Shown in pieces: positions 27,720-43,775 of a stretch of DNA of 64,000 nt. The position numbers and the translations under genes are program-made. Where the stretch lies: contig NZ_AUWQ01000081.1 in assembly GCF_000455205.1 (NCBI RefSeq), positions 1 to 64,000 of the forward strand, read 5' to 3'. Source of the stretch: Mycobacterium sp. UM_CSW (GTDB lineage Bacteria > Actinomycetota > Actinomycetes > Mycobacteriales > Mycobacteriaceae). Numbering within the stretch: position 1 is the first letter of the stretch; every line of letters begins with the position of its first letter. Under the pieces are notes generated by a model. It was not told the DNA's origin. It searched no databases and saw nothing but the letters and a program-made list of their open reading frames with translations.

Positions 27720-28558
27720 AGCTTCACCCGGCCCATGATCAGGTCGATGATCGGCTTGCCGGGCGGGTAGGCACCGGTCAGCGACGCCATGGTGTGCCCG
27801 TAGTCCACCAGCAGCGTGATGCCGTTGACGCCGAACGCGGCGGCGCTGTTCAGGAACGCCATCACGTCGCCCATCTGTTCGGGGGTGTGCACCTTCGAGC
27901 CGGTCTCGTCGCGGTAGTCCTGCGCGAACGTCAGCCACAGGTCGGCGTTGGCCTGGGCAAGCGGGGTGTCGGTGGGACCCGGGCAGATCGCGTTGATGCG
28001 GATGCCCTTCTTCAAAAGGCGAATGCCCTGCGTTGCCACGTAGGCGTTGACGATCTTCTTGCTGGTGCCGTAGTGGATGATGCCCTCAGACTCGTGCGCC
28101 TTCACCCACTCGACGGCCGCATCGAAGTCGGGCGTCTCGAGGAATTCCAGCAGCAGGTCCAGGTCGTTTTCCCAGCCCATGCCGGCGACCGAGGAGATGA
28201 AGCAGATTGCTGAGCCGGACGGCAGCTGGTTCTTTTCCAGCAGGCGGTCGATGACGTAGCGGTGGCCGATGAAGTTGATCTTCATCAGGTCTACCGTTCC
28301 GTCGGCGATGCCGGCGGCCGAGAACAGTGCGTGGATCGGACCGTCCACCTGGGCGAGCGCGGCGTCGATCGACGCCGGGTCACGCAGGTCGACCTGCACG
28401 GACTGGGCGACGTCGTAGTTCACCGGCGCGTAGTCCAGCACGATGACCTCGGCGCCGAGTTCGGCCGCCGACTTGGCCGCCGCGGCGCCCATGCCGGTCG
28501 CGCCGCCAACAACGAGTGCGCGCTTGCCGTCGTAGCGCAACCGATCGACGATAGTCAT
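27716..28558 (-). CDS. Short-chain dehydrogenase/reductase (coniferyl-alcohol/hydroxysteroid dehydrogenase-like)
   Basis: 280 aa from ATG 28558, with AGAGGA upstream. The NAD loop GGATGMGAAAAK, the VDLRDPASIDAAL segment and the catalytic YGTSKK (Tyr and Lys) followed by INAICPGPTDTPL mark a classical SDR. The pattern, with a large insertion after FISSVAGMGWENDL, is that of the 3-alpha-hydroxysteroid/coniferyl-alcohol dehydrogenase subgroup. One copy of the cluster motif (28614-28634) lies 56 bp upstream, which would link it to the acyl-CoA dehydrogenase cluster. Substrate not known. Confidence 0.88.
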   Translation of the reverse strand: MTIVDRLRYDGKRALVVGGATGMGAAAAKSAAELGAEVIVLDYAPVNYDVAQSVQVDLRDPASIDAALAQVDGPIHALFSAAGIADGTVDLMKINFIGHRYVIDRLLEKNQLPSGSAICFISSVAGMGWENDLDLLLEFLETPDFDAAVEWVKAHESEGIIHYGTSKKIVNAYVATQGIRLLKKGIRINAICPGPTDTPLAQANADLWLTFAQDYRDETGSKVHTPEQMGDVMAFLNSAAAFGVNGITLLVDYGHTMASLTGAYPPGKPIIDLIMGRVKL

Positions 28559-28613
28559 GGAAATCCTCTTCTCGCTCACTGCCAACCCGGTTCTAACTGC
28601 CCAACTGTATGGG

Positions 28614-28634
28614 TAACAGTTATTGGGTTTCAAT
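28614..28634. promoter_or_regulatory. Cluster motif, copy upstream of the SDR (weak match)
   Basis: The segment GTAACAGTTATTGGGTTTCA resembles GGAACAGATATTTGGTCAAC found at other promoters of the cluster, keeping AACAG, TATT and GGT. It lies in the 78-bp gap between the double TetR and the SDR and is the most diverged of the five copies listed. Confidence 0.4.
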
Positions 28635-28636
28635 AC

Positions 28637-29926
28637 CTACTTGCCGCGGACCGCGACTCCGCGCAGGACGGTGTCGCGGGCATGCACCAGCGCGGCGCGT
28701 TTGCCGACGGCGCGCAGGATGTTCTCCGGTATCCACTGCAGGCCGATGACGCATCGCGCCAGCATCGCGGTGGACGGCGCGTCGATCTGGATTTGCCCCG
28801 CCCGGATGCCCTCGGACAGCAGCGATTTCATCTGGCGAAGCCGGGTGGCGTACAGCCAGCCCGGGTTGGGCGTGTTCGGTGGCGATTGGCGCATCCACGC
28901 GAGCTGAATCCTGAACTCGTCGGAGAACCGATCGAGCGCGTTGACGTTGACCCAGCTGAGCGCGTCCAGCTTCTCGACCGCGGTGGCGTCCGCCTGCAGG
29001 ACGCTCACCCAACCGGCCTCCACCTTCCTGCCGAAGGACTCCATGATCGAGGCGAGGAGTTCGTCCTTGGACCCGATCACCCGGTAGACGGTCCCGGTGC
29101 CCAGCCCGGCCGCGGACGCGATGTCCCGGATGGTGGTGACCTCATATCCCTTGCGGCCGAACTCCGTTCGCGCCACCGCGAGGACGTGGGCCGCCTTGTC
29201 GTCGGGATCCGCGTCGCCGTCGTCGGCCCAGGTGTCGATGACGGCGTTTGCGGCCGCGAAGGCCTTGGACCGATTCAACGCCGCGTCGCTGGGCGGCCGG
29301 GCCGCCAATCCCGCCAAGATGATTCGGCACAGCAGCCCGGCGACCTGGTCGGGCGGGGAGTTGTGGCGCATGACGGCCAGCCCGACCTGCAGCATGGTCT
29401 GGCAGATGCGGTCGGCCAACGTGGGCAGGTCGATGTCGGGCTTGATGTAGCCGCTCCACCTGCCGGCGCGCAGCGTCTGCAGCATCGCCTGCTGGACAGC
29501 GGTGGGTGCCTGCTGCGTCAGCTTCATCAGCTCGGGGTCGTCGCCGGGGCCCTCGTAGAACGACATCTGCAACGCGGCGCCGTGTCGGACGGCGCAGTTC
29601 GCGATCGCCGATCCCAGCTCGACGATCTGCTCCGAGGCCGGTCGCGAGTCGGGCTCGTCCAGCCGGGCCTGGGCCTCCTGCCCGATCCGGGTCAGGTCCT
29701 CCTGATAGCGGCGGGTCAGCTCGACCAGGATCGCCTCTTTGGACTCGAAATGGTGATACAGGCTGCCGGGCAGGATGCCGGCCGCGTCCGCGATCTCCTG
29801 CAGCGACGTCCGCAAGCCCGACGACGCGATCAACGACGCCGCGGTCTGCAGGATTTCGGTTCGACGGGTGCCGGAGTCGTCAGCGTTGTTTGCCGGGTCG
29901 GTCGACGGATTCGCGACCTTACGCAT
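28637..29926 (-). CDS. Double TetR-family regulator (two TetR modules in one chain)
   Basis: 429 aa from ATG 29926 with a GGGAGGACGA ribosome site. Two complete TetR-type HTHs are present: residues ~21-70 (ILQTAASLIASSGLRTSLQEIADAAGILPGSLYHHFESKEAIL) and ~243-295 (VLAVARTEFGRKGYEVTTIRDIASAAGLGTGTVYRVIGSKDELL). Each is followed by a helical ligand-binding-like region. A normal TetR is ~200 aa, so this is a tandem fusion that could bind as an intramolecular dimer. It sits between the SDR and the nitroreductase/acyl-CoA dehydrogenase operon on the same strand and is the best candidate for the regulator that reads the shared promoter motif. Confidence 0.88.
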   Translation of the reverse strand: MRKVANPSTDPANNADDSGTRRTEILQTAASLIASSGLRTSLQEIADAAGILPGSLYHHFESKEAILVELTRRYQEDLTRIGQEAQARLDEPDSRPASEQIVELGSAIANCAVRHGAALQMSFYEGPGDDPELMKLTQQAPTAVQQAMLQTLRAGRWSGYIKPDIDLPTLADRICQTMLQVGLAVMRHNSPPDQVAGLLCRIILAGLAARPPSDAALNRSKAFAAANAVIDTWADDGDADPDDKAAHVLAVARTEFGRKGYEVTTIRDIASAAGLGTGTVYRVIGSKDELLASIMESFGRKVEAGWVSVLQADATAVEKLDALSWVNVNALDRFSDEFRIQLAWMRQSPPNTPNPGWLYATRLRQMKSLLSEGIRAGQIQIDAPSTAMLARCVIGLQWIPENILRAVGKRAALVHARDTVLRGVAVRGK

Positions 29927-30016
29927 TCGTCCTCCCGGCCGAACCAAATCTTTGTTAGAGGCTATCAGACCGTGCCGGAACAAATGCGCTGCACAAAAGC
30001 GCCGACGGTGCCCATT

Positions 30017-30664
30017 CTAGAGCGGCGGGCCGTCCCAGGCGTCGCGCGCAACCACTTCGTCGACGGGCCGCCGAGGAGCCGGCCGGAAAGTGTGCCCGGC
30101 GCGTAGCCGGCCCACCGGCAGCAGGCATCCCTGCGCGTAGCTCGGGGGAATACCAAGCAACCGGCCGATCTCCCCCTCGCGGTGCAGGTGCAGCGTCGTG
30201 ATGCAGGTTCCGTAACCGCGGGTGTGCAGGGCGAGCTGAAAGTTCCACACGGCCGGGAAGATCGAGCCGTACAGCGTGGCCTGATGGAACGACTCGTCGC
30301 CGTCGACGCGGGGCAGGTAGGGCTCGTAGCACGGGATCACCAACGCGGGGACCCGGGCCATGTTCTCGACGAGCCACTCCGTCGACGACATGATCCGTCC
30401 CTGCGGCGTGCCGGCGGGAAGCAAATCGGCCAGTAGCTGCCCGCCGACGCGAAGCAGATACGACTCGCGGTACAGCTCGGCGATCTGGTCGCGCAGCGCC
30501 GGGTCGGTCACCACGAGCCACCGCCAGGACTGCTGATTGGAGCCGTTGGCGGCGTGCAAACCGATGCGCAGGCACTCCCGGATGTCGGCGATGTCGACCG
30601 GCGCATCGAGGTCGAGCGACTTGCGGGCCGAACGGGTCGCGGTAAGGAGGTACTCGATGTCCAT
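30017..30664 (-). CDS. Nitroreductase-family flavoprotein
   Basis: 215 aa from ATG 30664. Nitroreductase features include the N-terminal RSARKSLDLDAPVD, AANGSNQQSWRWLVVTDPALR (FMN-phosphate contacts) and the C-terminal GTCITTLHLHREGEIGRLLGIPPSYAQGCLLPVGRL. It is an FMN- and NAD(P)H-dependent reductase; in degradative operons such proteins often reduce enones or enoyl-type intermediates. The start overlaps the stop of the upstream acyl-CoA dehydrogenase gene (TGATG), so it is translationally coupled. Last gene of a three-gene operon. Confidence 0.88.
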   Translation of the reverse strand: MDIEYLLTATRSARKSLDLDAPVDIADIRECLRIGLHAANGSNQQSWRWLVVTDPALRDQIAELYRESYLLRVGGQLLADLLPAGTPQGRIMSSTEWLVENMARVPALVIPCYEPYLPRVDGDESFHQATLYGSIFPAVWNFQLALHTRGYGTCITTLHLHREGEIGRLLGIPPSYAQGCLLPVGRLRAGHTFRPAPRRPVDEVVARDAWDGPPL

Positions 30665-31776
30665 CAAGCGCCCCTCTTGCCCAGGCGCGCACCGATTTCG
30701 GTGAGGTAGCGGTCGGGCCTACCCAGAAGTTCGCTCCAGCTCAGCAAGCGCTTGAGGTACAGATGGGCATCGTGCTCCCAGGTGTAACCGATGCCGCCGA
30801 AAACCTGGATGGCGGTGTCGCCCACGGTCGCCAGCCGCCCTGCGAACGCCTTCGCCCGCAGCGCGGCAAGATGGCGTTCGTCGGACGACGGTTCGTTGTC
30901 GGCGGCCCACAGCGCGTGGATCACACCGCTGCGGGCCAGCTCGACGGTCTCGTACATGTCGACGCACAGGTGTTGGACGGCCTGAAACGAGCCGATAACC
31001 TGGCCGAACTGCTTTCTGACCTTTGCGTATTCGATGGCCAGGTGCATGACGGCGCGCGCGGCGCCCAGCGCGTCGGCGGCGGTGGCGATGAGGATGTCGT
31101 CGATCACGGCGGCAACGTCGTCCGGCGAGGCCGTGGCCAGCCGGTGCGCGGCCGCGCCGTCGAGCTCGACGCGAAAGCGCTTGCGGGTCTGGTCGATACC
31201 GCGCTCGGGTGCGACAGCCACGCCGGACGAGTCGGTCTTCAACGCGTAAAGCCCGATGCCGGACGGGTCAGGCGCGAGCACCAGCAAGGTGTCGGCCGCG
31301 GCGGCGTCGGGCACGCCGGCGATCTCGCCCCGCATCGCGATCTCATCACCGCGGCCGGACACCTCGACGGCGGCGTTCTCCGCGTCCAGGAAGCCCACGG
31401 TGGCGATGGTGCTGCCGTCGGCGATCCCGGCCAAAATCGTTGCGCCAGGAGCATTGTCGGCTAAACGGGTCAGCGCACGCGCCGCGGCGACCGCGCTCGA
31501 CAACCAGGGGCCCGGATGCAGGGCGGCGCCGAGTTCCTCGGCGACCACCCCCGCCTCGACCATCGTCATCCCGGCCCCGCCGTGTTCCTCGGGCACCAGC
31601 AGCCCGGTCACGCCGAGGTCGGCCAGACCCCGCCAGACCGCCTCGTCTTTACCGCCCATGCCGGTCGGATCGTCGAGCAGCGCGCGCACATGCCCCGAAA
31701 TGGGCGCCTTCTCGGCGAGAAAGCGCCGCGTCGTGTCGCGCAGCGCGCCCTGTTCGTCGGTAAGTTCGAGGTTCAT
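30664..31776 (-). CDS. Acyl-CoA dehydrogenase, second subunit or paralogue
   Basis: 370 aa from ATG 31776. Typical ACAD pattern: LTDEQGALRDTTRRFLAEKAP, GVTGLLVPEEHGGAGMTMVEAGVVAEELG, a diverged middle domain, and the C-terminal VRKQFGQVIGSFQAVQHLCVDMYETVELARSG plus QVFGGIGYTWEHDAHLYLKRL. FAD-linked alpha,beta-dehydrogenation of an acyl-CoA thioester. The start overlaps the stop of the other ACAD gene by ATGA, as in actinobacterial alpha2beta2 ACADs of steroid side-chain degradation, so the two products may form a heteromer (inference). Confidence 0.9.
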   Translation of the reverse strand: MNLELTDEQGALRDTTRRFLAEKAPISGHVRALLDDPTGMGGKDEAVWRGLADLGVTGLLVPEEHGGAGMTMVEAGVVAEELGAALHPGPWLSSAVAAARALTRLADNAPGATILAGIADGSTIATVGFLDAENAAVEVSGRGDEIAMRGEIAGVPDAAAADTLLVLAPDPSGIGLYALKTDSSGVAVAPERGIDQTRKRFRVELDGAAAHRLATASPDDVAAVIDDILIATAADALGAARAVMHLAIEYAKVRKQFGQVIGSFQAVQHLCVDMYETVELARSGVIHALWAADNEPSSDERHLAALRAKAFAGRLATVGDTAIQVFGGIGYTWEHDAHLYLKRLLSWSELLGRPDRYLTEIGARLGKRGA

Positions 31777-32918
31777 CGGCGGGGCAATCCCAGCACGCGC
31801 TGCGCGGTGATGTTCTTGTTGATCTGGGTCGTTCCCCCCGCGATGGTCAGCGATCGTGACGTGAGGCGGTAGCTCGCCCACGGGGCGCTGGTGCCGTGGC
31901 TGCCTAGCACGTCGAACGCGAGCGCGGCCATGTCCTGTCCGATCTCACCCCATACGGTCTTGGCCAGGCTGGCCGACGCGAACGGGTCGCCGCCGTGCAG
32001 CGTGGCGGAGATCGACCGCTGGCACAGCACCTCGAGATACTTGATGCGGACGGCGATTTCGCCGAGACGCCGCAGTATCACCGGGTCGTCCAGCGCGTCG
32101 CTTTGGGCGGCGAAGTCGTCCACCAGCTCTTCCAGCCGCACCTGCATCTCGGCGTACAGCCGCGCCGCGCCGGCACGCTCGTGGCTCAGGGTGGTGGTGG
32201 CCACCTGCCAGCCGGCGTTCAGCGGCCCGAGCAACGCATCGGCAGGCACCCGGACGTCGTGAAAGAACACCTCGGCGAAATCGGTGTCGCCGTTGAGCGT
32301 TACGAGTGGGCGCACCTCGATGCCGGGCAGCGACATGTCCACGATGAGGCAGGAGATCCCGTTGTGCTTCGGGGCGTCGGGATCGGTCCGCACGTACAGC
32401 TGACACCAGTCCGCGCGGTGCCCGAGCGAGGTCCAGATCTTCTGGCCGGTGATGACGAAGTCGTCCCCGTCACGCGCCGCCCGCGTGCGCAGCGCGGCGA
32501 GATCGGATCCGGCCTCGGGCTCCGACATTCCCTGGCACCAGATGTCGTCGGCGCGCATCATCCGGGGGAGCAGCGTCGTCTTCTGCTCTTCGGTGCCGTA
32601 CTGCATGATCGCGGGCGCGATGTTGTTCATCCCAATGACGTTGAGCGGCATGGGCGCCCGTGCGCGAGTGGTTTCCTCGGTGTAGACCAGTTGCTCGAGC
32701 ACGGTCGCCCCGCGGCCACCGTATTCGCGTGGCCAGGACACGGCGGCCCATCCCGCGTCGGCCATCGTCGCGCTCCACGTCCGCAGCAACTCGATCCCCG
32801 CGTCGTCCCGCCCGGCGGGCCGGCGGGCGGCCACCAGCTCCTCGGTCAGGTTCGCCGACAGCCAGTCGCGCAGCTCGGTGCGGAACTGTTCGGCTTCCGC
32901 GGGGTAGGAGAAGTCCAT
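31773..32918 (-). CDS. Acyl-CoA dehydrogenase, first subunit or paralogue
   Basis: About 381 aa from ATG 32918 (GTG 32930 would add four residues). It contains WAAVSWPREYGGRGATVLEQLVYTEE, the FAD-site segment WCQGMSEPEAGSDLAALRTRA, DDFVITGQKIWTSLGHRADW and the C-terminal SLTIAGGTTQINKNITAQRVLGLPR. First gene of the operon ACAD-ACAD-nitroreductase. Immediately upstream lie a copy of the cluster motif and then an SDR remnant, so the original operon probably began with that SDR. Confidence 0.9.
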   Translation of the reverse strand: MDFSYPAEAEQFRTELRDWLSANLTEELVAARRPAGRDDAGIELLRTWSATMADAGWAAVSWPREYGGRGATVLEQLVYTEETTRARAPMPLNVIGMNNIAPAIMQYGTEEQKTTLLPRMMRADDIWCQGMSEPEAGSDLAALRTRAARDGDDFVITGQKIWTSLGHRADWCQLYVRTDPDAPKHNGISCLIVDMSLPGIEVRPLVTLNGDTDFAEVFFHDVRVPADALLGPLNAGWQVATTTLSHERAGAARLYAEMQVRLEELVDDFAAQSDALDDPVILRRLGEIAVRIKYLEVLCQRSISATLHGGDPFASASLAKTVWGEIGQDMAALAFDVLGSHGTSAPWASYRLTSRSLTIAGGTTQINKNITAQRVLGLPRR

Positions 32919-32936
32919 TTTTCCGGACACTACGTT

Positions 32937-32956
32937 GGAGCAGATATTAGGTCAAC
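32937..32956. promoter_or_regulatory. Cluster motif, copy upstream of the acyl-CoA dehydrogenase operon
   Basis: GGAGCAGATATTAGGTCAAC, 19 bp upstream of the ATG of the first acyl-CoA dehydrogenase. It differs from the copy at 33146 at only two of 20 positions. The core has an imperfect dyad centred on ATAT, which fits a dimeric regulator. Confidence 0.6.
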
Positions 32957-33074
32957 TAGGCGTTGGCGAGCATCGCCCTGATGCCTCGGCCCTCACGGGT
33001 CCAGCGCGTACGGGTGGCCGGAGCTCGCGGCCGGCGCCGGTGACGAAGGCGACCCGGTCGGCGAAGTCAATCAT
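32956..33074 (-). pseudogene. SDR remnant with the interior deleted
   Basis: Behind a good ribosome site (CCAAGGAGCGCAAC) an ATG at 33074 opens MIDFADRVAFVTGAG, the standard N-terminus and first half of the NAD loop of a short-chain dehydrogenase. Within a few codons this turns into unrelated sequence. In another frame the last ~40 bases read REGRGIRAMLANA and stop, which looks like an SDR C-terminus. About 700-800 bp of the gene appear to be missing. It would have been the first gene of the acyl-CoA dehydrogenase operon. Confidence 0.6.
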
Positions 33075-33145
33075 GTTGCGCTCCTTGGCAAGTGCGACCG
33101 ATGCGCGGGCCGTGATTGACCGTAGGCGGGACCGGGCCCTACGCT

Positions 33146-33165
33146 GGAACAGATATTTGGTCAAC
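33146..33165. promoter_or_regulatory. Cluster motif, copy upstream of the vWA gene
   Basis: GGAACAGATATTTGGTCAAC, 22 bp upstream of ATG 33188, in the divergent spacer between the SDR remnant and the vWA gene. Used here as the reference copy. Nearly the same sequence occurs at 32937-32956, and its reverse complement, almost complete, at 34877-34899. Confidence 0.6.
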
Positions 33166-33187
33166 AAAGCGCACCGATAGGGGGTCG

Positions 33188-34903
33188 ATGGCAAACGACG
33201 CGCATGGCGACCGATTGCAGGCCCTCGGCATGTTCGCGTCCGCGCTCGCGGGCCGGCTCGTCGCGGTCGCCGAATTGCGGCCGGGTGAGCCCCCGTGGAC
33301 GGACGGCCAGACGATCCACGTCACTGCCGCCGGGGCCCGCACGGCGATCGCCGTGCAGGCCTCGATGATCGCGGCGGGCAGCCTGGACGCCGGCGTCGTG
33401 CGTTGCCTGGTGCGCCGTCCCCGGCTGGCCAGGCGCTACCTGGCGGTCGAGGGCCACCGCGCGCTCGTCGCCAACGGTGCGCTGTTGCCGGCCAGCCTGG
33501 CGTTGGGAGACCGCGACATCGCAAGCCGCAGCGACTCGCCCGCCGCGTCGCTGCGGATCGCCGGGGGGAGGGCGGCGATCGACCACCCGGCGCCGGAATT
33601 CGGCGTGATCCGCCCGGCCAAGGTGTTGGCGGCCGCCGGCCGGGCGGGCACAGGGGAGGACGCGAACGCGCGACACGTGCCGCGGGGACAGCCGCGGCAA
33701 CTCGCCGAACTGGACGACGGGCAGGTCGACGATTCCGACGACCCGGACATGTTCACCAGCCCGGTCGGCGGGGGCGGCTTCATCGGCAAGTGGCTGAAGA
33801 AGATGCTGTCGTCCGCGCGCAAGACAGGCAGCGGCGGTGGACCTCCCGGCGCGGATCTCCCGACCCACCGGACGAATTCGGCGAACCGCGGCCTGCACGC
33901 GGTCGCGTCGCTGGCGTCGGCGTCGGGCGATGAGGTCGACGACGAGCAAGCCAGACCCCCCGACGGCGTGACGTATCCCGAATGGGACGTCACCCGCAAG
34001 AGCTACCGGCCCGCGTGGTGCACCGTGCGCGAGGTAGAGCCGACCATCAAGACACAGGCGACGCAGGCCATAGCCGGAGACATTGGCGTCCGCCGCCCGC
34101 TGTCCCGCCTCGGCATGGGACTGCACCGCCGCCACCGCCAGCCGCAGGGCGACGACATCGACATCGACGCCGCGGTGGAGGCCCGGGTGGAGGTGCTGGC
34201 CGGGTCGGTGCCCGACGAGGCGGTGTACCTGGACAGCCTGCGCCGCCGGCGCGACCTGTCGGTGCTGCTCCTGCTCGACGTCTCGGGGTCGGCGGCCGAA
34301 CCCGGCACGGTCGGGCGGACGGTGCACGAGCAACAGCGTGCGGCGGTCGCCAACCTCGCCGTCGCGCTGCACGACCTGGGCGACCGTGTCGCGCTGTACG
34401 CCTATTACTCGCAGGGCCGGCGCGCGGTGAGCATGGTGCCCGTCAAACGATTCGACGAGCACCTCGACTCCCTGGTCATGAGGCGGCTCAACAGCCTGGA
34501 GCCCGGCGCCTACTCCCGCCTGGGTGCGGCCATCCGGCACGGTGCGGCGGTTCTCAAGGCACGCGGGGGTACGTCACGGCGGCTGCTGGTGGTGCTGTCC
34601 GACGGGCTCGCCTACGACCACGGATACGAGCGCCCCTACGGCGCCGCGGACGCGCGCCGCGCCTTGGCCGAAGCCCGCCGCCGCGGCACCGGCTGCGTGT
34701 GCCTGACCATCGGCGCCGGCACCGATATCCAATCGCTGCGCAGGGTCTTCGGCAGCACCGCGCACGCGACGATCGCGCGCCCGGATCAACTCGCCGGCGT
34801 CATCGGGCCGCTGTTCCGGTCGGCGCTGCGCTCGGCCGAGGTCCGCCGCCGGGCGGCCGCGACCGCGCGCCCGTTCGTTGAAACAAACATCTGTTCCGGA
34901 TAG
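33188..34903 (+). CDS. vWA-domain protein of the NorD/CbbO type
   Basis: 571 aa. The C-terminal third is a von Willebrand A domain with an intact MIDAS: LLLLDVSGSA (DxSxS), the Thr/Ser loop in LEPGAYSRLGAAIRHG and VVLSDGLAYDHGYE (Asp). The N-terminal two thirds are helical with an acidic, Gly-rich linker (QVDDSDDPDMFTSPVGGGGF). It pairs with the AAA ATPase 25 bp downstream, as NorD with NorQ or CbbO with CbbQ, complexes that remodel or metallate an enzyme. No RubisCO, NO reductase or CO dehydrogenase is in the window, so the client is unknown. A reverse-oriented cluster motif lies within its last codons. Confidence 0.85.
   Translation: MANDAHGDRLQALGMFASALAGRLVAVAELRPGEPPWTDGQTIHVTAAGARTAIAVQASMIAAGSLDAGVVRCLVRRPRLARRYLAVEGHRALVANGALLPASLALGDRDIASRSDSPAASLRIAGGRAAIDHPAPEFGVIRPAKVLAAAGRAGTGEDANARHVPRGQPRQLAELDDGQVDDSDDPDMFTSPVGGGGFIGKWLKKMLSSARKTGSGGGPPGADLPTHRTNSANRGLHAVASLASASGDEVDDEQARPPDGVTYPEWDVTRKSYRPAWCTVREVEPTIKTQATQAIAGDIGVRRPLSRLGMGLHRRHRQPQGDDIDIDAAVEARVEVLAGSVPDEAVYLDSLRRRRDLSVLLLLDVSGSAAEPGTVGRTVHEQQRAAVANLAVALHDLGDRVALYAYYSQGRRAVSMVPVKRFDEHLDSLVMRRLNSLEPGAYSRLGAAIRHGAAVLKARGGTSRRLLVVLSDGLAYDHGYERPYGAADARRALAEARRRGTGCVCLTIGAGTDIQSLRRVFGSTAHATIARPDQLAGVIGPLFRSALRSAEVRRRAAATARPFVETNICSG
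34877..34899. promoter_or_regulatory. Cluster motif, reverse-oriented copy upstream of the AAA gene
   Basis: Read on the reverse strand it starts GGAACAGATGTTTG and ends TTTCAAC, matching 13 of the first 14 bases of the copy at 33146. It overlaps the last codons of the vWA gene and lies 29 bp upstream of the AAA start codon. Because the bases also encode VETNICSG, chance is harder to exclude here than for the non-coding copies. Confidence 0.4.
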
Positions 34904-34928
34904 GCTCCGGTCGAGGAGAAGGGAAGCT

Positions 34929-35780
34929 ATGGCCAACGAGCCCGGTGTTGGTTACCGGAACGGCGCGACCCCCGAGGCTGAGATGGCACGGCCCTACTAC
35001 CAGGCGATCGGCGGCGAAGAGGCCGTCTTCAAGGCGGCGTACCGCCAAGGGCTGTCGCTCCTCCTGAAGGGGCCGACGGGTTGCGGCAAGACACGATTCG
35101 TCGAGGCGATGGCCTACGACCTCGGCCGGCCGCTGATCACCGTCGCCTGTCATGACGACCTCACCACCGCGGACCTCGTCGGCCGCTACCTGTTGAAGGG
35201 CGACGAGACGGTGTGGGTGGACGGGCCGCTGACCCGCGCGGTGCGCGAGGGGGCGATCTGCTATCTCGACGAGGTGGTAGAGGCGCGGCAGGACACCACC
35301 GTGGTGCTGCACCCGCTCGCCGACCACCGCCGCCAGCTGCCCATCGAGCGTCTCGGGGTCACGCTGGACGCGGCGCCCGGCTTCGGCCTGGTGGTGTCGT
35401 ACAACCCCGGCTATCAAAGCGTGCTCAAGGACCTCAAGGACTCGACACGTCAGCGGATGGTCGCCATCGAATTCGGCTTCCCCGCAGCCGATGTCGAGGA
35501 GTCGATCGTCGCGCACGAGGCCGGCGTCGACGGTGCCACGGCGGCCGAACTGGTGCGTTTCGGGCAGGCCATCCGCCGGCTGGAAACCGGCGGGCTGCGC
35601 GAGGTCGCGTCGACGCGCGTGCTGATCGCGGCGGCCCGGCTGGTGGCAGAGGGTCTGACGACACGCGAGGCGGCCCGGGCCGCGATCGCCGGGCCGCTGA
35701 CCGACGACGCCGCGGTGGGGCAGGGCCTCGGCGAGATGATCGACATCTATCTGGGTGGGCCCGACGGGCGCCATGATTGA
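34929..35780 (+). CDS. MoxR-type AAA+ ATPase of the CbbQ/NirQ/NorQ family
   Basis: 283 aa from ATG 34929 with a GGAGAAGGGA ribosome site. Walker A is KGPTGCGKTRFVE, the CbbQ-type segment is VACHDDLTTADLVGRYLLKGDETVWVDGPLTRAVREG, Walker B is ICYLDEVVEA, sensor 1 is VVSYNPGYQ, and the arginine-finger region is KDSTRQRMVAIEFGFP. It works with the vWA protein as a chaperone that activates a partner enzyme. The pair is flanked by catabolic genes rather than by a known client, which is unusual. Confidence 0.9.
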   Translation: MANEPGVGYRNGATPEAEMARPYYQAIGGEEAVFKAAYRQGLSLLLKGPTGCGKTRFVEAMAYDLGRPLITVACHDDLTTADLVGRYLLKGDETVWVDGPLTRAVREGAICYLDEVVEARQDTTVVLHPLADHRRQLPIERLGVTLDAAPGFGLVVSYNPGYQSVLKDLKDSTRQRMVAIEFGFPAADVEESIVAHEAGVDGATAAELVRFGQAIRRLETGGLREVASTRVLIAAARLVAEGLTTREAARAAIAGPLTDDAAVGQGLGEMIDIYLGGPDGRHD

Positions 35781-35806
35781 CGCTGCCCACGGCCATGACT
35801 AGGGTT

Positions 35807-35826
35807 CAGAACAAATATTAGGTTTG
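35807..35826. promoter_or_regulatory. Cluster motif, copy upstream of the ligand-binding protein gene
   Basis: CAGAACAAATATTAGGTTTG, 36 bp upstream of ATG 35863, matches the reference copy in GAACA, ATATT and GGT. It lies in an 82-bp intergenic gap and marks a probable separate promoter for the operon that runs to the P450 at 40307. Confidence 0.5.
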
Positions 35827-35862
35827 CCGTCGCGCGCGCAATTTTGACGTCCTGGAGGTCAG

Positions 35863-36981
35863 ATGTCCTACGAAAGCAGCGCAGAACCGATCAAGGTCGG
35901 CTACCTGATGGACTTCACGCTGCCACCGGGATTCCCCGAGGAGTTGTTGGCCAGTTTCACGCGGTGCTTCGACCTCGTCTTCGAGGAGGCCAGGGAACAG
36001 GGCCTGATCGATCGGCCGGTGCAAATGATCTACCGCGAGGTAGAGGGGTTGCCCAAGGGATCGGTCAAGTCGGTGATCGATGCCTTCGGGGAGCTCGTCG
36101 ACCAAGGCTGCCTGGTGGTGTTCGGGCCGCACATCACCGACAACTGCGTGCCCACCCGCGAGGCGATCGAGGAGCGGTTCAAGGTGCCCGCGATCAGCGT
36201 CACCGGCACCGACGACTGGTTGGGCGAGTGGACCTTCTCCTTCCCGCAGGGATCGTTGACCGACGAGCCGATCTTCATCGCGGACCTCGTCGCTAAACGA
36301 GGGCTCGCCGAGATCGGGGTCCTCGTCGAGCAGAACCTGATCGGCGAGAGCTATCTGAGGAACCTGCGAAGCGCATGCCGGCGCAAGGGCATTCGCATCG
36401 TCGCGGAGGCGGCGATCGCGCAGACCGCTCAGGACATCAATGGGGCCGTGCGCACCCTGCACGACGCGAAGGCCGAAGCGATCGTGCACCTCGGCTTCGG
36501 CTTCGGGATCGTGTTCATCAACCCTGCGCTCGAGGCCGTCGATTGGGACCCGCCGCGCTTCACCACCACCGCCTTCCAGAACGCGTGGGTGAACCCGATC
36601 ATGTGGAACGCCTTCATGGGTTGGATCGGGGTCGACCAGTACGACGAGGCGAATCGCGTCGGCCAGGACTTCCTCGACCGCTACGCCGCCAGGTACGAGG
36701 GCAGCCGTCCCGAGTATTGCGTGCCCGTGGTCAACCGTGACGTCGCCGCCACGCTCGTGCGCGCATTTGCCGACGCCCACCCGCTCAGCCCGCGCGGGGT
36801 CAAGGAGGCGCTGGAGCGGGTGAAGATGATGCCCGCCGCCTCGGGCGCGCCCGGCACCCGGGTGTCGTTCGGCAAGTGGACGCGGCGGGCGTGGATGGGC
36901 GCGGGCTACCTGGTGGCGCGGACGCTAGACGCCGACGGCGTCAACTCGCGCCTGGTCGACCGCTTCGGGGAGGACGGCTGA
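35863..36981 (+). CDS. ABC-type (branched-chain amino acid-like) ligand-binding protein without signal peptide
   Basis: 372 aa. The fold is that of Peripla_BP_6/LivJ proteins: KVGYLMDFTLPPGFPEELLASF, GEGLPKG-like EVEGLPKGSVKSVIDAFGELVDQGCLVVFGPHITDNCVP, AISVTGTDDWLGEWTFSFPQG and GVLVEQNLIGESYLRNLR. The N-terminus MSYESSAEPIKVGYLMDF has neither a signal peptide nor a lipobox, so it should stay in the cytosol, and no permease or ABC ATPase genes are nearby. It may sense or hold an intermediate for the pathway. ATG 35863 has a GGAGG site. Its stop overlaps the next start (TGATG). Confidence 0.85.
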   Translation: MSYESSAEPIKVGYLMDFTLPPGFPEELLASFTRCFDLVFEEAREQGLIDRPVQMIYREVEGLPKGSVKSVIDAFGELVDQGCLVVFGPHITDNCVPTREAIEERFKVPAISVTGTDDWLGEWTFSFPQGSLTDEPIFIADLVAKRGLAEIGVLVEQNLIGESYLRNLRSACRRKGIRIVAEAAIAQTAQDINGAVRTLHDAKAEAIVHLGFGFGIVFINPALEAVDWDPPRFTTTAFQNAWVNPIMWNAFMGWIGVDQYDEANRVGQDFLDRYAARYEGSRPEYCVPVVNRDVAATLVRAFADAHPLSPRGVKEALERVKMMPAASGAPGTRVSFGKWTRRAWMGAGYLVARTLDADGVNSRLVDRFGEDG

Positions 36982-38117
36982 TGTCGACGGAACAGTCCAT
37001 ACCGCTTGTCGCGGAGGAGAAGTCGGCGGCCCGACCTGACAAGCGCGGCTGGGGCGGCTGGATCGCCGGCGCCGCCTTGGCGGCGTTCACGCTGTTCTTC
37101 ATCGCGAACTGTCGCGTAGCCCTCGACCCGCGCGTCGCCAACCCAAACGTGCAAGGTCGGCCGCGTCCGGTGAAATTCACGTTCGGGCTGGACTACATCG
37201 GATTCCTGGACTGGGCCACCGTGGTGGCGTTGATCGTGCTGCTTTTGGTGTTCATCAGGGGCTGGCGGCGCAATCCGGGCAGCCCGGTGATGTTGATGTT
37301 CCTGTGCACCACGCTGATCGTGTGGCAGGACCCGATCATGAACTGGTCGCCGTTCGCGGTGTACAACCCCGACCTCGTTCACTGGCCGGAGTCGTGGCCG
37401 CTCGTCTCGTTGTCGCCAACGGTCGAGCCGTTCGTGGTGTTCGGCTACGTCATGTTCTATTTCGGCCCTTACTTCCCGGCGGTCTGGATTCTGCGGAAGC
37501 TACAGGCCAAATACGGGCCCGAGGCTTTTGTGTCGCGACACCCCTTGGTTTGCCTCGGCCTGGTCACCATGGTGATCGGCTTTGTCATGGATGCGTTTTT
37601 GGAGAACACCCTCATCCACTGGGGCATGTACATCTACTCGCAGGTGATTCCGTGGGGCTCGGTGTTCACCGGGACGACCTTCCAGTTCCCGCTGATCTGG
37701 GAGTCGTTCTCGGTGACGTTCGTGATGGTGCCCGCGGCGATCCTCTGCTATCGCGACGACACCGGGAAATCGGTGGCCGAGAAGCTGGCCGCCAAGGCCA
37801 GGATCTTCCCCGGCCGCCCGGTGCTCGGCACGTTCCTGGTGATGTTCGCCATCATCAACGTGTCCTACTTCGCCTATGGCGCGTGGTTCTGGGCGATCAA
37901 GGCCAGCCACGCGGCGACCTCGGTGGCCTGCCCGTGGCCGTATCCGGAAGCCAAAGTATATGATCCGCAAGGCTTTTACGAGAAGGCGGGCGCTCAGGGC
38001 CCATACTCCGTCGGCATCTGGTCGACCTGGGCGAGCGGGGAGCCGAACGGGCGCCCGCACGTAGACCCGCCACCGCCCGGTCAAGGCGCCTGCGCCACCG
38101 CGGGCAAGAATGGCTGA
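36981..38117 (+). CDS. AveC-like (spirocyclase-family) membrane protein
   Basis: 378 aa. About six or seven membrane segments are visible (WIAGAALAAFTLFFIANC, ATVVALIVLLLVFIRGW, VVFGYVMFYFGPYFPAVWIL, LGLVTMVIGFVMDAFLENTLIHWG, VTFVMVPAAILCYR, LGTFLVMFAIINVSYFAYGAWFWAI). The mid region FGYVMFYFGPYFPAVWILRK and the family-wide WQDPIMNWSPFAVYNPDLVHWPESWPLVSLSPTVEPF agree with the AveC-like family, whose founder acts in avermectin spiroketal formation. Its chemistry here is unknown. It is coupled to the ligand-binding protein gene upstream and overlaps the SDR gene downstream by 8 bp. Confidence 0.8.
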   Translation: MSTEQSIPLVAEEKSAARPDKRGWGGWIAGAALAAFTLFFIANCRVALDPRVANPNVQGRPRPVKFTFGLDYIGFLDWATVVALIVLLLVFIRGWRRNPGSPVMLMFLCTTLIVWQDPIMNWSPFAVYNPDLVHWPESWPLVSLSPTVEPFVVFGYVMFYFGPYFPAVWILRKLQAKYGPEAFVSRHPLVCLGLVTMVIGFVMDAFLENTLIHWGMYIYSQVIPWGSVFTGTTFQFPLIWESFSVTFVMVPAAILCYRDDTGKSVAEKLAAKARIFPGRPVLGTFLVMFAIINVSYFAYGAWFWAIKASHAATSVACPWPYPEAKVYDPQGFYEKAGAQGPYSVGIWSTWASGEPNGRPHVDPPPPGQGACATAGKNG

Positions 38118-39090
38118 GCCCCGCAGCGTCGTCATCACCGGCGCGTCCCGCGGGCTGGGGTTCGCCTCCGCGGTGCGCCTGTACCGCGAGGGGTGGCGCG
38201 TGGTCGCGGCCATGCGCAACCCCGACAAGGGAATGCCGTTGCTGCGCAGGGAAACCGGCGCGTCGGCCGGTGACGACCGGCTGATCGGTGTGCAGCTCGA
38301 CCTGTTGGACGCGGCGTCGGTCTCGGCGGCCGCCAAGGCGATCGAGGAAGCCGTCGGCACCCCCTACGCGCTCGTGCACAACGCCGGCATCTCCGCCGCG
38401 GGAGTCGTCGAGGAAACCGATATGGCGTTATGGCAGAGGATGTTCGGGACCACCGTCATGGGTCCCGTCGCGCTCACCCAGGCGCTGCTGCCGTCGATGC
38501 GGGCGGCGGGGGAGGGGCGCATCGTCCTGGTATCCAGCGCGGCCGGCGTCCGCGGTCAACCGGGCACCGCGCCGTACGCCGCGGCCAAGGGAGCGTTGGA
38601 GCGGTGGGGCGAGTCGATGGCGGGCGAGATCGCTCCGTTCGGTCTCGGAGTCACCGTCTTGGTGGCCGGCATGTACGACACCGAGATCATCACAGACGCG
38701 GGCACCACCGACAATCGCGACTTCGGCGGCCCGTACGCCCGGTTGCACAACACGATGAACACTCGCGGGCGGTTCGCGATCAGTTTCGCCCGACCACCCG
38801 AGCGCTTCACCGACGGACTGCTCAAGGCGCTGGCCGACCGGGGTGCGTTCCGGCGCCGCGGTGTGGGCGCTGACTCCTCGATGCTTTTGGCGGCCAACAG
38901 GATCCTTCCGGATTCCGGCATGCACCACCTTTCGCGGATCGTGCTGGGCCTTCCCAGACAGGGCGCGATGCGGGGCGGGGCCTGGCCGTTGACTTGGCCC
39001 CAGCGAGCGATGGTGTTGGCGGCGCGCGTTCTTCCGCAGCCGGTGCTGCAGCGCCTTGCCGCGAGACGACAACGAACAGGGGACCAGTAA
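38110..39090 (+). CDS. Short-chain dehydrogenase/reductase
   Basis: 326 aa. NAD(P) loop VVITGASRGLGFASAVRLYREGWRVVAAMR, NNAG-equivalent LVHNAGISAAGVVEE, catalytic Ser in VLVSSAAGVRG and YAAAKGALERWGESMAGE with Tyr and Lys. An Arg in the turn after the first strand (AAMRNPDKG) suggests NADP preference. The C-terminal ~90 residues after FARPPERFTDGLL extend beyond a minimal SDR. The start at 38110 overlaps the AveC-like gene and its stop overlaps the P450 start (TAATG), so it belongs firmly to this operon. Substrate unknown. Confidence 0.88.
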   Translation: MAEPRSVVITGASRGLGFASAVRLYREGWRVVAAMRNPDKGMPLLRRETGASAGDDRLIGVQLDLLDAASVSAAAKAIEEAVGTPYALVHNAGISAAGVVEETDMALWQRMFGTTVMGPVALTQALLPSMRAAGEGRIVLVSSAAGVRGQPGTAPYAAAKGALERWGESMAGEIAPFGLGVTVLVAGMYDTEIITDAGTTDNRDFGGPYARLHNTMNTRGRFAISFARPPERFTDGLLKALADRGAFRRRGVGADSSMLLAANRILPDSGMHHLSRIVLGLPRQGAMRGGAWPLTWPQRAMVLAARVLPQPVLQRLAARRQRTGDQ

Positions 39091-40307
39091 TGGAACAGCT
39101 TTTCGACGACCTGGAGGACTTCGGTGCCTTCGACGACGCGATCTCCGGTGACGTGCGCGATCCGTACACCGAGCTGGCGCGGCTGCGCCGCGAGGAACCG
39201 GTGCAGCGGCTCGAGACGTCGGGAGCGCTTCCGCACGAGGAAGGCCTGCCGATGTTCATCGTGTATCGCCACGAGGACATCCAGCAGATGCTGCGCGACA
39301 ACGAGACGTTCTCCTCGGCCGCCGTCATCGCTGCGTTCGGCCCGGTGCTGGGTGAAGGCGTGATGCTCGGCATGGACGAGCCGATCCACGGCCGGCTGCG
39401 GTCATTGGTGTCGAAGGCCTTCTCGCAGAAGTCATTGGCGCGCTGGCAGGACGAGTTGGTCGGCCGCGTGGCGAACGGCCTGATCGACAACTTCGCGCCG
39501 AACGGCAAGGCGGATCTGGTCAAGGAGTTCACTTTCGACTATCCGAGCCAGATCATCGCGGGCCTGCTGGGCTTGCCGGAGACGGATTACCCGCAGTTCC
39601 AGCGGTGGTCGATTTCGCTGCTGAGTTGGCTGATGAACCCGGAACGCGGGCTTGCGGCCTCGGCCGCGCTGTGCGATTACTTCGCGCCGATACTGCAGGC
39701 CCGGCGTGCCGAACCGCGCGACGACCTGATCAGCGCCCTGGCCCAGGCCGAAATCGACGGCGAGAAGCTCGACGACGAGGAGATCTACTCGTTCCTGCGC
39801 CTGCTGCTGCCCGCCGGGGTGGAGACGACGTACCGGGCCCTGGGCAGCCTGCTGTTGGCGCTGCTGTCGGACCCTGCGCAACTGGATGCCATCCGCGCGG
39901 ACCGGTCGCTGCTGCCGCAGGCGATCGAGGAGGGGGTGCGGTGGGAATCACCGTTGCTGACCATCACCCGGGTGGCGACTCGCGACACCGAACTCGGCGG
40001 CGTGGCGATACCGGCGGGGGCGACGGTCATGCCGATGCTGGGTTCGGCGAACCGGCAAGAGGACCGCTATCCCGATCCGAACAGGTTCGACATCCACCGC
40101 GAGGCCCGGGCGCATCTGGGCTGGGGGCACGGCGTGCACGTCTGCCTCGGCATGCACCTGGCCCGGCTGGAGATGCGCACCGCCATCAACCTGCTGCTGG
40201 ATCGGCTGCCGAATCTTCGGCTGGATCCCGACGCGGACGACCCGCACATCCGGGGCCAAGTCTTCCGGTCGCCGACGTCGGTACCGGTGCTGTTCGACCC
40301 CAGCTAG
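39090..40307 (+). CDS. Cytochrome P450 (last gene of the ligand-binding protein operon)
   Basis: 405 aa. I helix LLLPAGVETTYRALG has A-G-x-E-T in place of A-G-x-D-T, the ExxR is EEGVRWESPL, and the heme loop is LGWGHGVHVCLGMHLARLEMR, all intact. The substrate-entry segment FGPVLGEGVMLGMDEPIHGRLRSLVSKAFS is typical of bacterial class I P450s. Its start codon overlaps the SDR stop. No ferredoxin is encoded nearby. Together with the SDR and the ALDH downstream it could oxidise an alkyl or terpenoid carbon stepwise to the acid, feeding the acyl-CoA dehydrogenases (inference). Confidence 0.93.
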   Translation: MEQLFDDLEDFGAFDDAISGDVRDPYTELARLRREEPVQRLETSGALPHEEGLPMFIVYRHEDIQQMLRDNETFSSAAVIAAFGPVLGEGVMLGMDEPIHGRLRSLVSKAFSQKSLARWQDELVGRVANGLIDNFAPNGKADLVKEFTFDYPSQIIAGLLGLPETDYPQFQRWSISLLSWLMNPERGLAASAALCDYFAPILQARRAEPRDDLISALAQAEIDGEKLDDEEIYSFLRLLLPAGVETTYRALGSLLLALLSDPAQLDAIRADRSLLPQAIEEGVRWESPLLTITRVATRDTELGGVAIPAGATVMPMLGSANRQEDRYPDPNRFDIHREARAHLGWGHGVHVCLGMHLARLEMRTAINLLLDRLPNLRLDPDADDPHIRGQVFRSPTSVPVLFDPS

Positions 40308-40398
40308 ACAGCCCTCGCGAAGGTTGGATATTGCCAATCGGCTACTTTCCAGTAAGGCTCTCTGTAGCCCCTCAACGATTCAGAAGAGAGTGACAAAC

Positions 40399-41883
40399 AT
40401 GACTGAGGCTGTAAAGGTCCGTTTCGAGCCGAAGATGATGATCGACGGCAAGCTCGTCGAGGGCCAGGCCGGCACCTTCACCAACATCAACCCCGCGACC
40501 GAGGAGCCGCTCGGTGAGGTCGCGGACGCGTCGAAGGAAGACATGCACCGCGCCATCGACGCCGCGCGGCGCGCCTTCGACGAGACGGACTGGTCGACCA
40601 ACCGGGAGCTGCGCAAGCGCTGCCTGCTGCAACTGCACGAGGCGATCGAATCGGAGAAGGAAGAGCTGCGCGAGGAGCTCATCCTCGAGGTCGGCTCGCC
40701 GCGGGCCATCACCTTCGGCCCCCAGCTGGACGCCCCACTCGAAGACGGACTGAAGTACCCGGCCAGGTTGATCGACGAGTACGCCTGGGAAACCGACCTC
40801 GGCGACAAGGTGATCAGCCTGACCGGCACGCTGACCACCCGCAAGGTCTGGCGCGAACCCGTGGGCGTGGTCGGCGCGATCGTGCCATGGAACTTCCCGT
40901 TCGAGGTCACCCTCAACAAGCTCGGCCAGGCGCTGGGCACCGGCAACACCGTGGTGCTCAAGCCGGCGCCCAACACGCCGTTCAACGCGACCCGGCTCGG
41001 CAGGCTGATCGCCGAGAAGACCGACATTCCTGCGGGCGTCGTCAACGTCGTGACGGCGTCGGATCACTTTGTCGGCGAGGAACTTACGCTGTCGCCGAAG
41101 GTCGACCTGATCTCCTTCACCGGTTCCACCGTGGTCGGCCAGCGGATCATGGAAAAGGGCGCCGCGACGATGAAGCGGCTGTTTTTGGAGCTCGGCGGCA
41201 AGTCGGCGACGATCGTCTTGGAGGACGCCGACTTCGGCGCGGCCTGCGCGATCGGCATCGCGCCGTGCATGCATGCCGGGCAGGGCTGCGCCAACCCCAC
41301 CCGGATGCTGTTGCCGCGGTCCCGCTACGACGAGGGTGTCGCGATCCTCAAGAGCATCTACGAGAACGTCACGTGCGGCGACCCGCAGGATCCCGGAACC
41401 CTGTGCGGGCCGGTGATTTCGGAGGTGCAGCGCAACCGCGTGATGGGCTACATCCGCAAGGGCGTCGAGGAGGGCGCCACCGCGTTGGTCGGCGGCCCGG
41501 ACGCGCCCACCGGCTTCGACAAGGGATTCTACGTCAGGCCAACGCTTTTCACCGACGTCGACAACTCCATGACGATCGCCCAGGAGGAGATCTTCGGTCC
41601 CGTGCTTGCGGTCATTCCGTACGACGACGAGGAGGACGCGATCCGGATCGCCAACGACAGCAAGTACGGGCTGGCGGGCAACGTGATGTCGGGCTCGCTG
41701 GAGCGTTCGCTGGCGGTGGCCCGCCGGATCCGGGCCGGGTTCATGGGCGTCAACGGCGGCGCTCCCTACGGCGCCGACACGCCGTTCGGCGGTTACAAGT
41801 ACAGCGGGGTGGGCCGGCAGAACGGCGTCGCCGGGTTCGACCAGTACACCGAGATCAAGTCGGTGGCTTACCCCGCCGGGTGA
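40399..41883 (+). CDS. Aldehyde dehydrogenase (NAD(P)-dependent)
   Basis: 494 aa. Standard ALDH motifs: VGAIVPWNFPFEVTLNKLGQALGTGNTVVLKPAPNTP, SFTGSTVVGQRIM, the general base in LFLELGGKSA (Glu264) and the nucleophile in HAGQGCANPTR (Cys297), and EEIFGPVLAVIPYDDEEDAI. It oxidises an aldehyde to the carboxylic acid. It starts 91 bp after the P450 stop, so it may have its own promoter. A strong terminator follows. Substrate not identifiable. Confidence 0.93.
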   Translation: MTEAVKVRFEPKMMIDGKLVEGQAGTFTNINPATEEPLGEVADASKEDMHRAIDAARRAFDETDWSTNRELRKRCLLQLHEAIESEKEELREELILEVGSPRAITFGPQLDAPLEDGLKYPARLIDEYAWETDLGDKVISLTGTLTTRKVWREPVGVVGAIVPWNFPFEVTLNKLGQALGTGNTVVLKPAPNTPFNATRLGRLIAEKTDIPAGVVNVVTASDHFVGEELTLSPKVDLISFTGSTVVGQRIMEKGAATMKRLFLELGGKSATIVLEDADFGAACAIGIAPCMHAGQGCANPTRMLLPRSRYDEGVAILKSIYENVTCGDPQDPGTLCGPVISEVQRNRVMGYIRKGVEEGATALVGGPDAPTGFDKGFYVRPTLFTDVDNSMTIAQEEIFGPVLAVIPYDDEEDAIRIANDSKYGLAGNVMSGSLERSLAVARRIRAGFMGVNGGAPYGADTPFGGYKYSGVGRQNGVAGFDQYTEIKSVAYPAG

Positions 41884-41909
41884 TGGCCGCGAAGCCAAGT
41901 GCGCGGAAA

Positions 41910-41944
41910 GGAGCGGCCCTCGAATCCTCTCCGAGGGCCGCTCC
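41910..41944. terminator. Strong hairpin terminator between ALDH and the tectonin-repeat gene
   Basis: A perfect 13-bp GC-rich stem (41910-41922 with 41932-41944) and a 9-base loop, located between two converging genes (stops at 41883 and 41957), so it probably acts in both directions. No U tract. Confidence 0.75.
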
Positions 41945-43495: not shown

Positions 43496-43775
43496 TGGTC
43501 GCTCCTCGGACCTGGTTGGGTATTGCTCTCCTGGCTGGATTCGGGAGGTCGCTTTGCCCGTAGGACCACCCACTCACAGATGGTGTCCAACGCGATCCGG
43601 TCTTGGCGTGCGTAGTGGGCTACTCCAATGCTTCTTCGGGGTGCTACTCGAATTCATCTTGAACTCGGTCGTTCGTCTTTTCGGCTAGGTCGGCGAGGAA
43701 AACCACCCCGCCCCACTCCCTCCCAACCGCCTGGTTGACAATCGACGCAGACCCCAAGTCAAAGGAGACACCACC

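Follow-up and report, generated by a model that had tools for sequence, protein, structure and literature searches.

The NorQ/NorD pair of nitric oxide reductase (NOR) joins a NorQ-type ATPase to a VWA partner (PMC9976466, PMC13036017). In the available parts of the first of these papers, NOR, RuBisCO, and fumarate reductase are named as clients of MoxR/VWA pairs; for the NOR system the model put forward has the N-terminal domain of NorD determine the choice of client and the metal ion-dependent adhesion site (MIDAS) of NorD bind D220/E222 of NorB (PMC9976466). AveC of avermectin synthesis is described as a spirocyclase/dehydratase, and structural information on AveC is lacking according to the available text of a 2026 paper (PMC13303154). 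Mce3R of M. tuberculosis has two TetR units in each chain, lipid-related targets, and non-palindromic 25-bp sites, as given in the accessible part of PMC11667970. Here, we report a gene cluster that brings likenesses of all three together in the window, i.e., the first 64,000 nucleotides of contig NZ_AUWQ01000081.1 from Mycobacterium sp. UM_CSW (genome, 6.39 Mb). Our best explanation, to which we give a probability of roughly 0.6, is that a double TetR regulator (dTetR) represses a lipid-oxidation regulon in which a NorQ/NorD pair serves as the maturase of an AveC-like membrane protein. No description of this regulon, or of a link between AveC and NorQ/NorD, was found among the listed matches of our searches in open-licence papers.

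The window holds six copies of an asymmetric 23-bp putative operator. Sites were scored with a 23-column matrix from 124 loci in which six gene classes were given equal weight, and with a retrained matrix for which the window and five near relatives were left out of training; both scores are given here, the full matrix first. The strongest copy lies ahead of the von Willebrand factor A (vWA) gene at 33144..33166 (+; 35.4 and 35.1 bits) and abuts a −10 box TACGCT at 33140-33145. It is followed by the copy ahead of the reverse-strand genes of two acyl-CoA dehydrogenases (ACADs) and a nitroreductase, ACAD2-ACAD1-nitroreductase (32935..32957, +; 31.1 and 31.2 bits), the copy ahead of the operon of a ligand-binding protein (LBP) (35806..35828, +; 29.7 and 29.3 bits; abutting TAGGGT at 35800-35805), the copy ahead of the AAA ATPase gene and within the end of the vWA gene (34877..34899, −; 29.4 and 29.1 bits; followed by TAGGCT at 34901-34906), the copy ahead of the reverse-strand short-chain dehydrogenase gene SDR1 (28611..28633, +; 24.5 and 24.1 bits), and the copy about 12 bp before the dTetR start (29938..29960, −; 22.7 and 22.2 bits). 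The next unrelated match in the window reaches 13.8 bits with the retrained matrix, and second-order Markov simulations (20 runs), scanned with the full matrix, give a top score of 19.6 bits. An earlier note on this DNA had counted four to five copies; its places stand, its total does not, for it overlooked the site at 29938, a candidate for autoregulation of dTetR. As that note had it, the copies at 32937 and 33146 are identical at 18 of 20 positions; they are also the sole matches with at most three mismatches in the 64 kb, where none is expected (100 shuffles). Between the ACAD2 and vWA sites, a broken SDR-like remnant was seen by eye on the reverse strand (32960-33080). This remnant may account for the two sites in the window where many relatives share one; 40 sites in other species are common to vWA and ACAD2.

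The earlier note would have given up its regulon had the motif been absent from orthologous promoters, and we found the motif at the same six starts in relatives. A perfect 16-base core stands ahead of vWA in 29 of 30 orthologous loci, the window included, L050 being the locus without it. Across the 124 loci (79 named and 45 others including the window, with 114 distinct vWA start regions and some genomes represented twice), a site of at least 18 bits was recorded for vWA in 119/123, LBP in 110/119, AAA in 105/123, SDR1 in 56/56, ACAD2 in 57/73, and dTetR in 79/108. The other cluster genes are nearly free of sites, with two in 585 in total: AveC 0/118, SDR2 1/115, P450b 0/117, aldehyde dehydrogenase (ALDH) 0/100, nitroreductase 1/62, and ACAD1 0/73. 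Please note that the matrix was trained on the same gene classes, and these counts therefore describe conservation, with the comparison genes and the retrained scan as controls; 63 of 564 sites have no assigned gene.

The sites also keep a fixed relation to the promoter boxes. At vWA, LBP, and dTetR, the GGAAC edge of the site is where a TANNNT −10 box ends. At AAA, ACAD2, and SDR1 the site occupies the spacer: the reversed GGTCAA edge supplies a −35 of the TTG(A) type, and the −10 lies beyond the other edge. Under a loose definition (TANNNT at the site edge and TTG 16-19 bp farther upstream), both boxes accompany sites in the usual orientation at vWA (115/125), LBP (107/109), AAA (102/105), ACAD2 (56/61), and SDR1 (56/56), while all 64 dTetR sites in the usual orientation have the −10 alone. 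Among the 17 dTetR sites in the other orientation, four have both boxes, one has the −10 alone, and 12 have neither; the five vWA, LBP, and ACAD2 sites in unusual orientation have neither box. Placement within or abutting promoter boxes is typical of repressors. The site is polar, the median of forward minus reverse score being 9.0 to 20.9 bits by class with a minimum below zero for a few LBP and dTetR sites, and this polarity fits a protein with two different helix-turn-helix (HTH) heads, as shown for Mce3R in the available part of PMC11667970.

The dTetR gene (28637..29926, −) encodes two TetR_N stretches in one chain according to Pfam. For its co-occurrence with the sites, 15 genomes were selected, six of the nine dTetR-bearing ones having been picked because dTetR fell outside the fetched flank. 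In nine of the 15, dTetR is present at 66% identity or more, and the other six give no match at E 1e-20; the consensus pattern has one to nine matches in each of the nine whole genomes and zero in each of the six, and the reversed pattern has none in any of the 15. The six genomes free of both dTetR and sites hold AveC-vWA-AAA only (G028, G371) or the class II pair described below (G301, G142, G101, G169). In the six picked genomes, dTetR lies about 12-15 kb off (G079, G971, G972) or elsewhere (G969, G970, G973), and five of these six dTetR genes have an upstream site of 18.8 to 24.0 bits. Their surroundings are not wholly new in two loci (L237, L238), because SDR1, nitroreductase, and ACAD1 moved along with dTetR.

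The motif could instead be a strong shared promoter, or be read by another factor, with dTetR as a passenger: the reversed GGTCAA edge doubles as a TTGACC-like −35, and its conservation is thus partly that of the promoter. Yet at vWA, LBP, and dTetR this edge, lying behind the −10 and being no −35 of the gene concerned, is conserved as well; the presence of dTetR and that of sites agree in all 15 genomes, and dTetR genes outside the fetched flanks carry sites of their own in the numbers just given, so we regard this alternative as very improbable. A conserved regulon of oxidation genes with dTetR as its regulator, by contrast, is highly probable, and the motif-linked regulon of the earlier note is supported by the sites at orthologous starts and by the co-occurrence. 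In its two TetR units, its predicted asymmetric operator, and its lipid-related targets, dTetR resembles Mce3R; it differs in that phmmer aligns the two only over residues 28-117 (E 5.8e-11), with 2ibd and KstR2 scoring better, that its predicted operator is a short pseudo-palindrome rather than a site of the Mce3R kind, and that no mce genes are listed in its cluster. A second dTetR of about 53% identity lies beside a second class I vWA (57%) in L247 (G969:C1:2378735-2379961); the fetched piece has no site at 15 bits, consensus matches lie at 2382018 and about 2398110, and the question is raised of a duplicated regulon.

The regulon seemingly extends beyond the window. The loose pattern matches the home genome 30 times, and only eight of these matches reach 21 bits, namely the six window sites and two on contig C28, in a search that sites farther from the pattern would escape. 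One C28 site precedes a luciferase-like monooxygenase gene by about 12 bp, the other is situated between two divergent genes of the 2,4-diaminopentanoate dehydrogenase type, and they adjoin two P450s and a short AveC paralogue, as would suit a second, unlinked oxidation locus of the same regulon. Of the 124 loci, 13 to 21 contain relatives of the C28 genes, and four contain a relative of the short AveC. A P450-like gene starting MS(D/E)FESVDFF, which a dozen loci carry at their far end together with a strong site of about 32 bits (L140 near 20019; L116 near 18952), is probably a further member.

We now turn to the ATPase/vWA pair, which by homology is of the NorQ/NorD type. The AAA ATPase (34929..35780, +) has AAA_5 and CbbQ_C domains with Walker A and B present and matches solved NorQ at E 7.3e-94; the adjacent vWA protein (33188..34903, +) carries VWA_2 and aligns in its vWA part with solved NorD (E 2.6e-38); its MIDAS consists of D364xS366xS368 and D472, with S443, in our own reading, replacing the usual threonine. 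With Walker A/B and DxSxS intact, the pair resembles NorQ/NorD of NOR and, like these, would likely act on a membrane protein; unlike these, it has no apparent NOR gene in its cluster, another NorD N-terminal domain, and an AveC-like partner. The AveC-like membrane protein (36981..38117, +) matches PF17198 with 217.8 bits (E 1.9e-64) against a curated cut-off of 26.6, and its structure model has a pLDDT of 86.6. It shares this domain with avermectin AveC; in contrast to the latter, it is placed among oxidation genes with NorQ/NorD.

Three classes of loci were distinguished. Class I, the window type, reads vWA-AAA-LBP-AveC followed by SDR2, P450b, and ALDH, whose order varies; class II reads AveC-AAA-vWA with an AAA 64-70% identical; in class III the AAA is about 50% identical and AveC is not adjacent. 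Gene presence in 109 full-length class I loci is LBP 108, AveC 107, P450b 106, SDR2 104, dTetR 101, ALDH 94, ACAD2 66, and SDR1 54. In a sample of 249 genomes of the order, 20 have class I AveC (E 1e-40), and these 20 are also the ones with class I vWA. AveC adjoins the pair in all 10 class II loci (L097-L103, L203-L205), none of which has a site over 15.1 bits, and among distant actinobacteria L195 reads AveC-NorD-hydrolase-NorQ and L192 AveC-NorD. A class-wide sample found AveC_like in 37 of 394 genomes, 22 in the family of the window, all with NorQ, and 15 outside it; nine of the 15 have a CbbQ_C gene, within 7 kb of an AveC gene in all nine and on the same strand in seven. Among 20 AveC-negative genomes (19 of the order of the window), a CbbQ_C match occurs in two, one a fragment with a stop and one weak. 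From the distant and AveC-negative counts it follows that NorQ of this type goes with AveC and that some AveC-like proteins manage without NorQ. Two observations stand beside these: L104 (G000:C74:74000-93999) has a second NorQ/NorD-like pair of class III near several P450 matches and without AveC, and one class II locus (L101:10598-13659) has two AveC-like genes with TetR-like genes, judged by first residues, between and beside them.

The N-terminal part of NorD marks the same association. A profile built from the first 150 residues of class I NorD hits all 17 NorDs whose genes have AveC no more than about 3 kb away, among them those of class II and of distant loci (E 6e-23 or better). It hits none of the other 11 NorD-like proteins, even at E 10, although all 28 match the VWA profile; of the 11, two (the first copy in L094, and L193) have AveC about 7-11 kb away, and for six (L105, L107-L111) the absence of AveC was judged by an in-house AveC profile only, not by PF17198. 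Protein comparisons used filtered sets from 41 loci (32 vWA, 38 AveC, and 38 LBP, with internal-stop or low-identity proteins left out), and 149 AveC sequences were reduced to 84 by removal of near-identical ones, 73 plus the window forming set A3. The acids D204 and E208 are missing in all five short AveC paralogues that have no adjacent NorQ.

The client of the pair might be a soluble enzyme of the cluster, a P450 or the ACAD pair, with AveC a mere neighbor. P450b is nearly as constant as AveC in full-length loci (106 and 107 of 109), the minimal locus L090 has a P450 some kilobases away, and ACADs, judged by first residues, are near several AveC-NorD loci. On the other hand, L090 and L096 keep AveC-vWA-AAA without LBP, SDR2, or ALDH alongside and without the operator (the L096 contig stops just beyond AAA), class II retains AveC with the pair in a different gene order, and ACAD genes occur in just 66 of the 109 loci; a soluble client is unlikely in our opinion. 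The earlier note had the pair activating one of the cluster enzymes: a partner within the cluster is kept here, and the P450 or ACAD as the likeliest choice gives way to the AveC-like membrane protein, which across loci is most likely the partner. A functional link of NorQ/NorD with AveC is, by this co-occurrence, likely, if less secure than the regulon itself.

In a third alternative, AveC, NorQ/NorD, and a cytosolic LBP would form a device for uptake or lipid sensing, in place of an enzyme and its maturase. The LBP (35863..36981, +) is a Peripla_BP_6 protein, and the absence of a signal peptide, claimed in the earlier note, holds throughout: none of the 38 orthologues has a hydrophobic leader, so the protein is probably cytosolic, and 29 of the 38 start MSYES(S/T)AEPIK(V/I)GY. 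We give such a device low odds, much like those of a soluble client.

Several points weigh against the reading of a dTetR-repressed regulon with an AveC maturase. For the regulator, L239 has a site only behind its dTetR gene, and at 18 bits a site is missing from 29 of the 108 dTetR genes. For the maturase, six of the 15 distant genomes with AveC lack a CbbQ_C gene, some AveC copies not beside NorQ retain the acids (L194, L197, L198), and no solved fold, that of Insig (MvINS) included, clearly matches the AveC-like protein. Avermectin AveC is described as a spiroketalisation/dehydration enzyme, and the word "metal" does not occur in the available part of the paper on it (PMC13303154).

The preferred reading, i.e., dTetR repression with NorQ/NorD as AveC maturase, would work as follows. 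dTetR would bind an asymmetric pseudo-palindrome close to GGAACAnATnTTTGGTYcAA, one half-site for each of its non-identical HTH heads, within the −35/−10 spacer or directly behind the −10 box, and would silence six window promoters, its own included, and a second locus elsewhere in the genome until a hydrophobic inducer releases it. The derepressed enzymes would oxidize a bulky alicyclic, perhaps steroid-like lipid through P450 hydroxylation, SDR and ALDH oxidation, and acyl-CoA dehydrogenation. NorQ/NorD would serve the AveC-like membrane protein as its own ATP-driven maturase: the special N-terminal domain of NorD would recognize this protein, the NorD MIDAS would grip its cytosolic acid pair D259/D260, and the NorQ ATPase would open it, allowing an acidic pocket in the membrane (D117, E149, D204, E208) to be completed, perhaps with a metal. 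That NorQ/NorD inserts a metal into the AveC-like protein is a reasoned guess, for which we would allow somewhat less than an even chance. Slightly more doubtful is the proposal that AveC-like proteins of this type form a new class of integral-membrane metalloenzymes that carry a carboxylate-rich site on their outer side, are assembled by their own NorQ/NorD branch (marked by the NorD N-terminal domain), and are induced together with the pathway by the double-TetR switch.

The remaining genes bear on the chemistry. ACAD1 (30664..31776, −) has IpdE2 as its top NCBIfam match at 150 bits, under the cut-off of 450, and ACAD2 (31773..32918, −) has 6wy9, 6wy8, and 4x28 as nearest solved structures, each at E 1e-62 or better; we take these to be steroid side-chain enzymes. 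The two adjacent ACAD genes and the ACAD2 match recall the steroid-type two-subunit ACADs, from which the cluster differs in that neither ACAD1 nor ACAD2 reaches a curated NCBIfam cut-off. Also present are SDR1 (27716..28558, −), the nitroreductase-fold protein (30017..30667, −), SDR2 (38110..39090, +), P450b (39090..40307, +), and ALDH (40399..41883, +). The gene starts were read from the sequence (dTetR 29926, SDR1 28558, ACAD2 32918, vWA 33188, AAA 34929, ALDH 40399), and Pfam agrees with the gene calls of the earlier note for ACADs, nitroreductase fold, SDRs, P450s, ALDH, VWA, AAA, Peripla_BP_6, and AveC_like. The steroid-like ACAD matches, together with P450, SDR, and ALDH, suggest that the cluster oxidizes a bulky alicyclic lipid to a CoA ester, which is then dehydrogenated. 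Beside the cluster, an AraC regulator, a GMC oxidoreductase (choline dehydrogenase / MftG-like), and a second P450 (23699-27719) each occur in six of the 109 full-length loci, and a Tectonin-domain protein downstream of ALDH (41957-43573) has a match in one, the window itself.

In many environmental mycobacteria, a two-headed repressor appears to control conserved lipid-oxidizing genes together with an ATP-driven activator. The compact double-TetR regulon, with its very well-defined putative operator, lends itself to the study of how a single site is read by two different HTH heads of the same chain. MoxR/VWA pairs are common and few of their clients are known; AveC is a testable client prediction, with a branch-marking domain and an acid pair to mutate. 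An AveC-like protein as the partner of NorQ/NorD would be a new kind of target for such machines and a first handle on AveC-like proteins.

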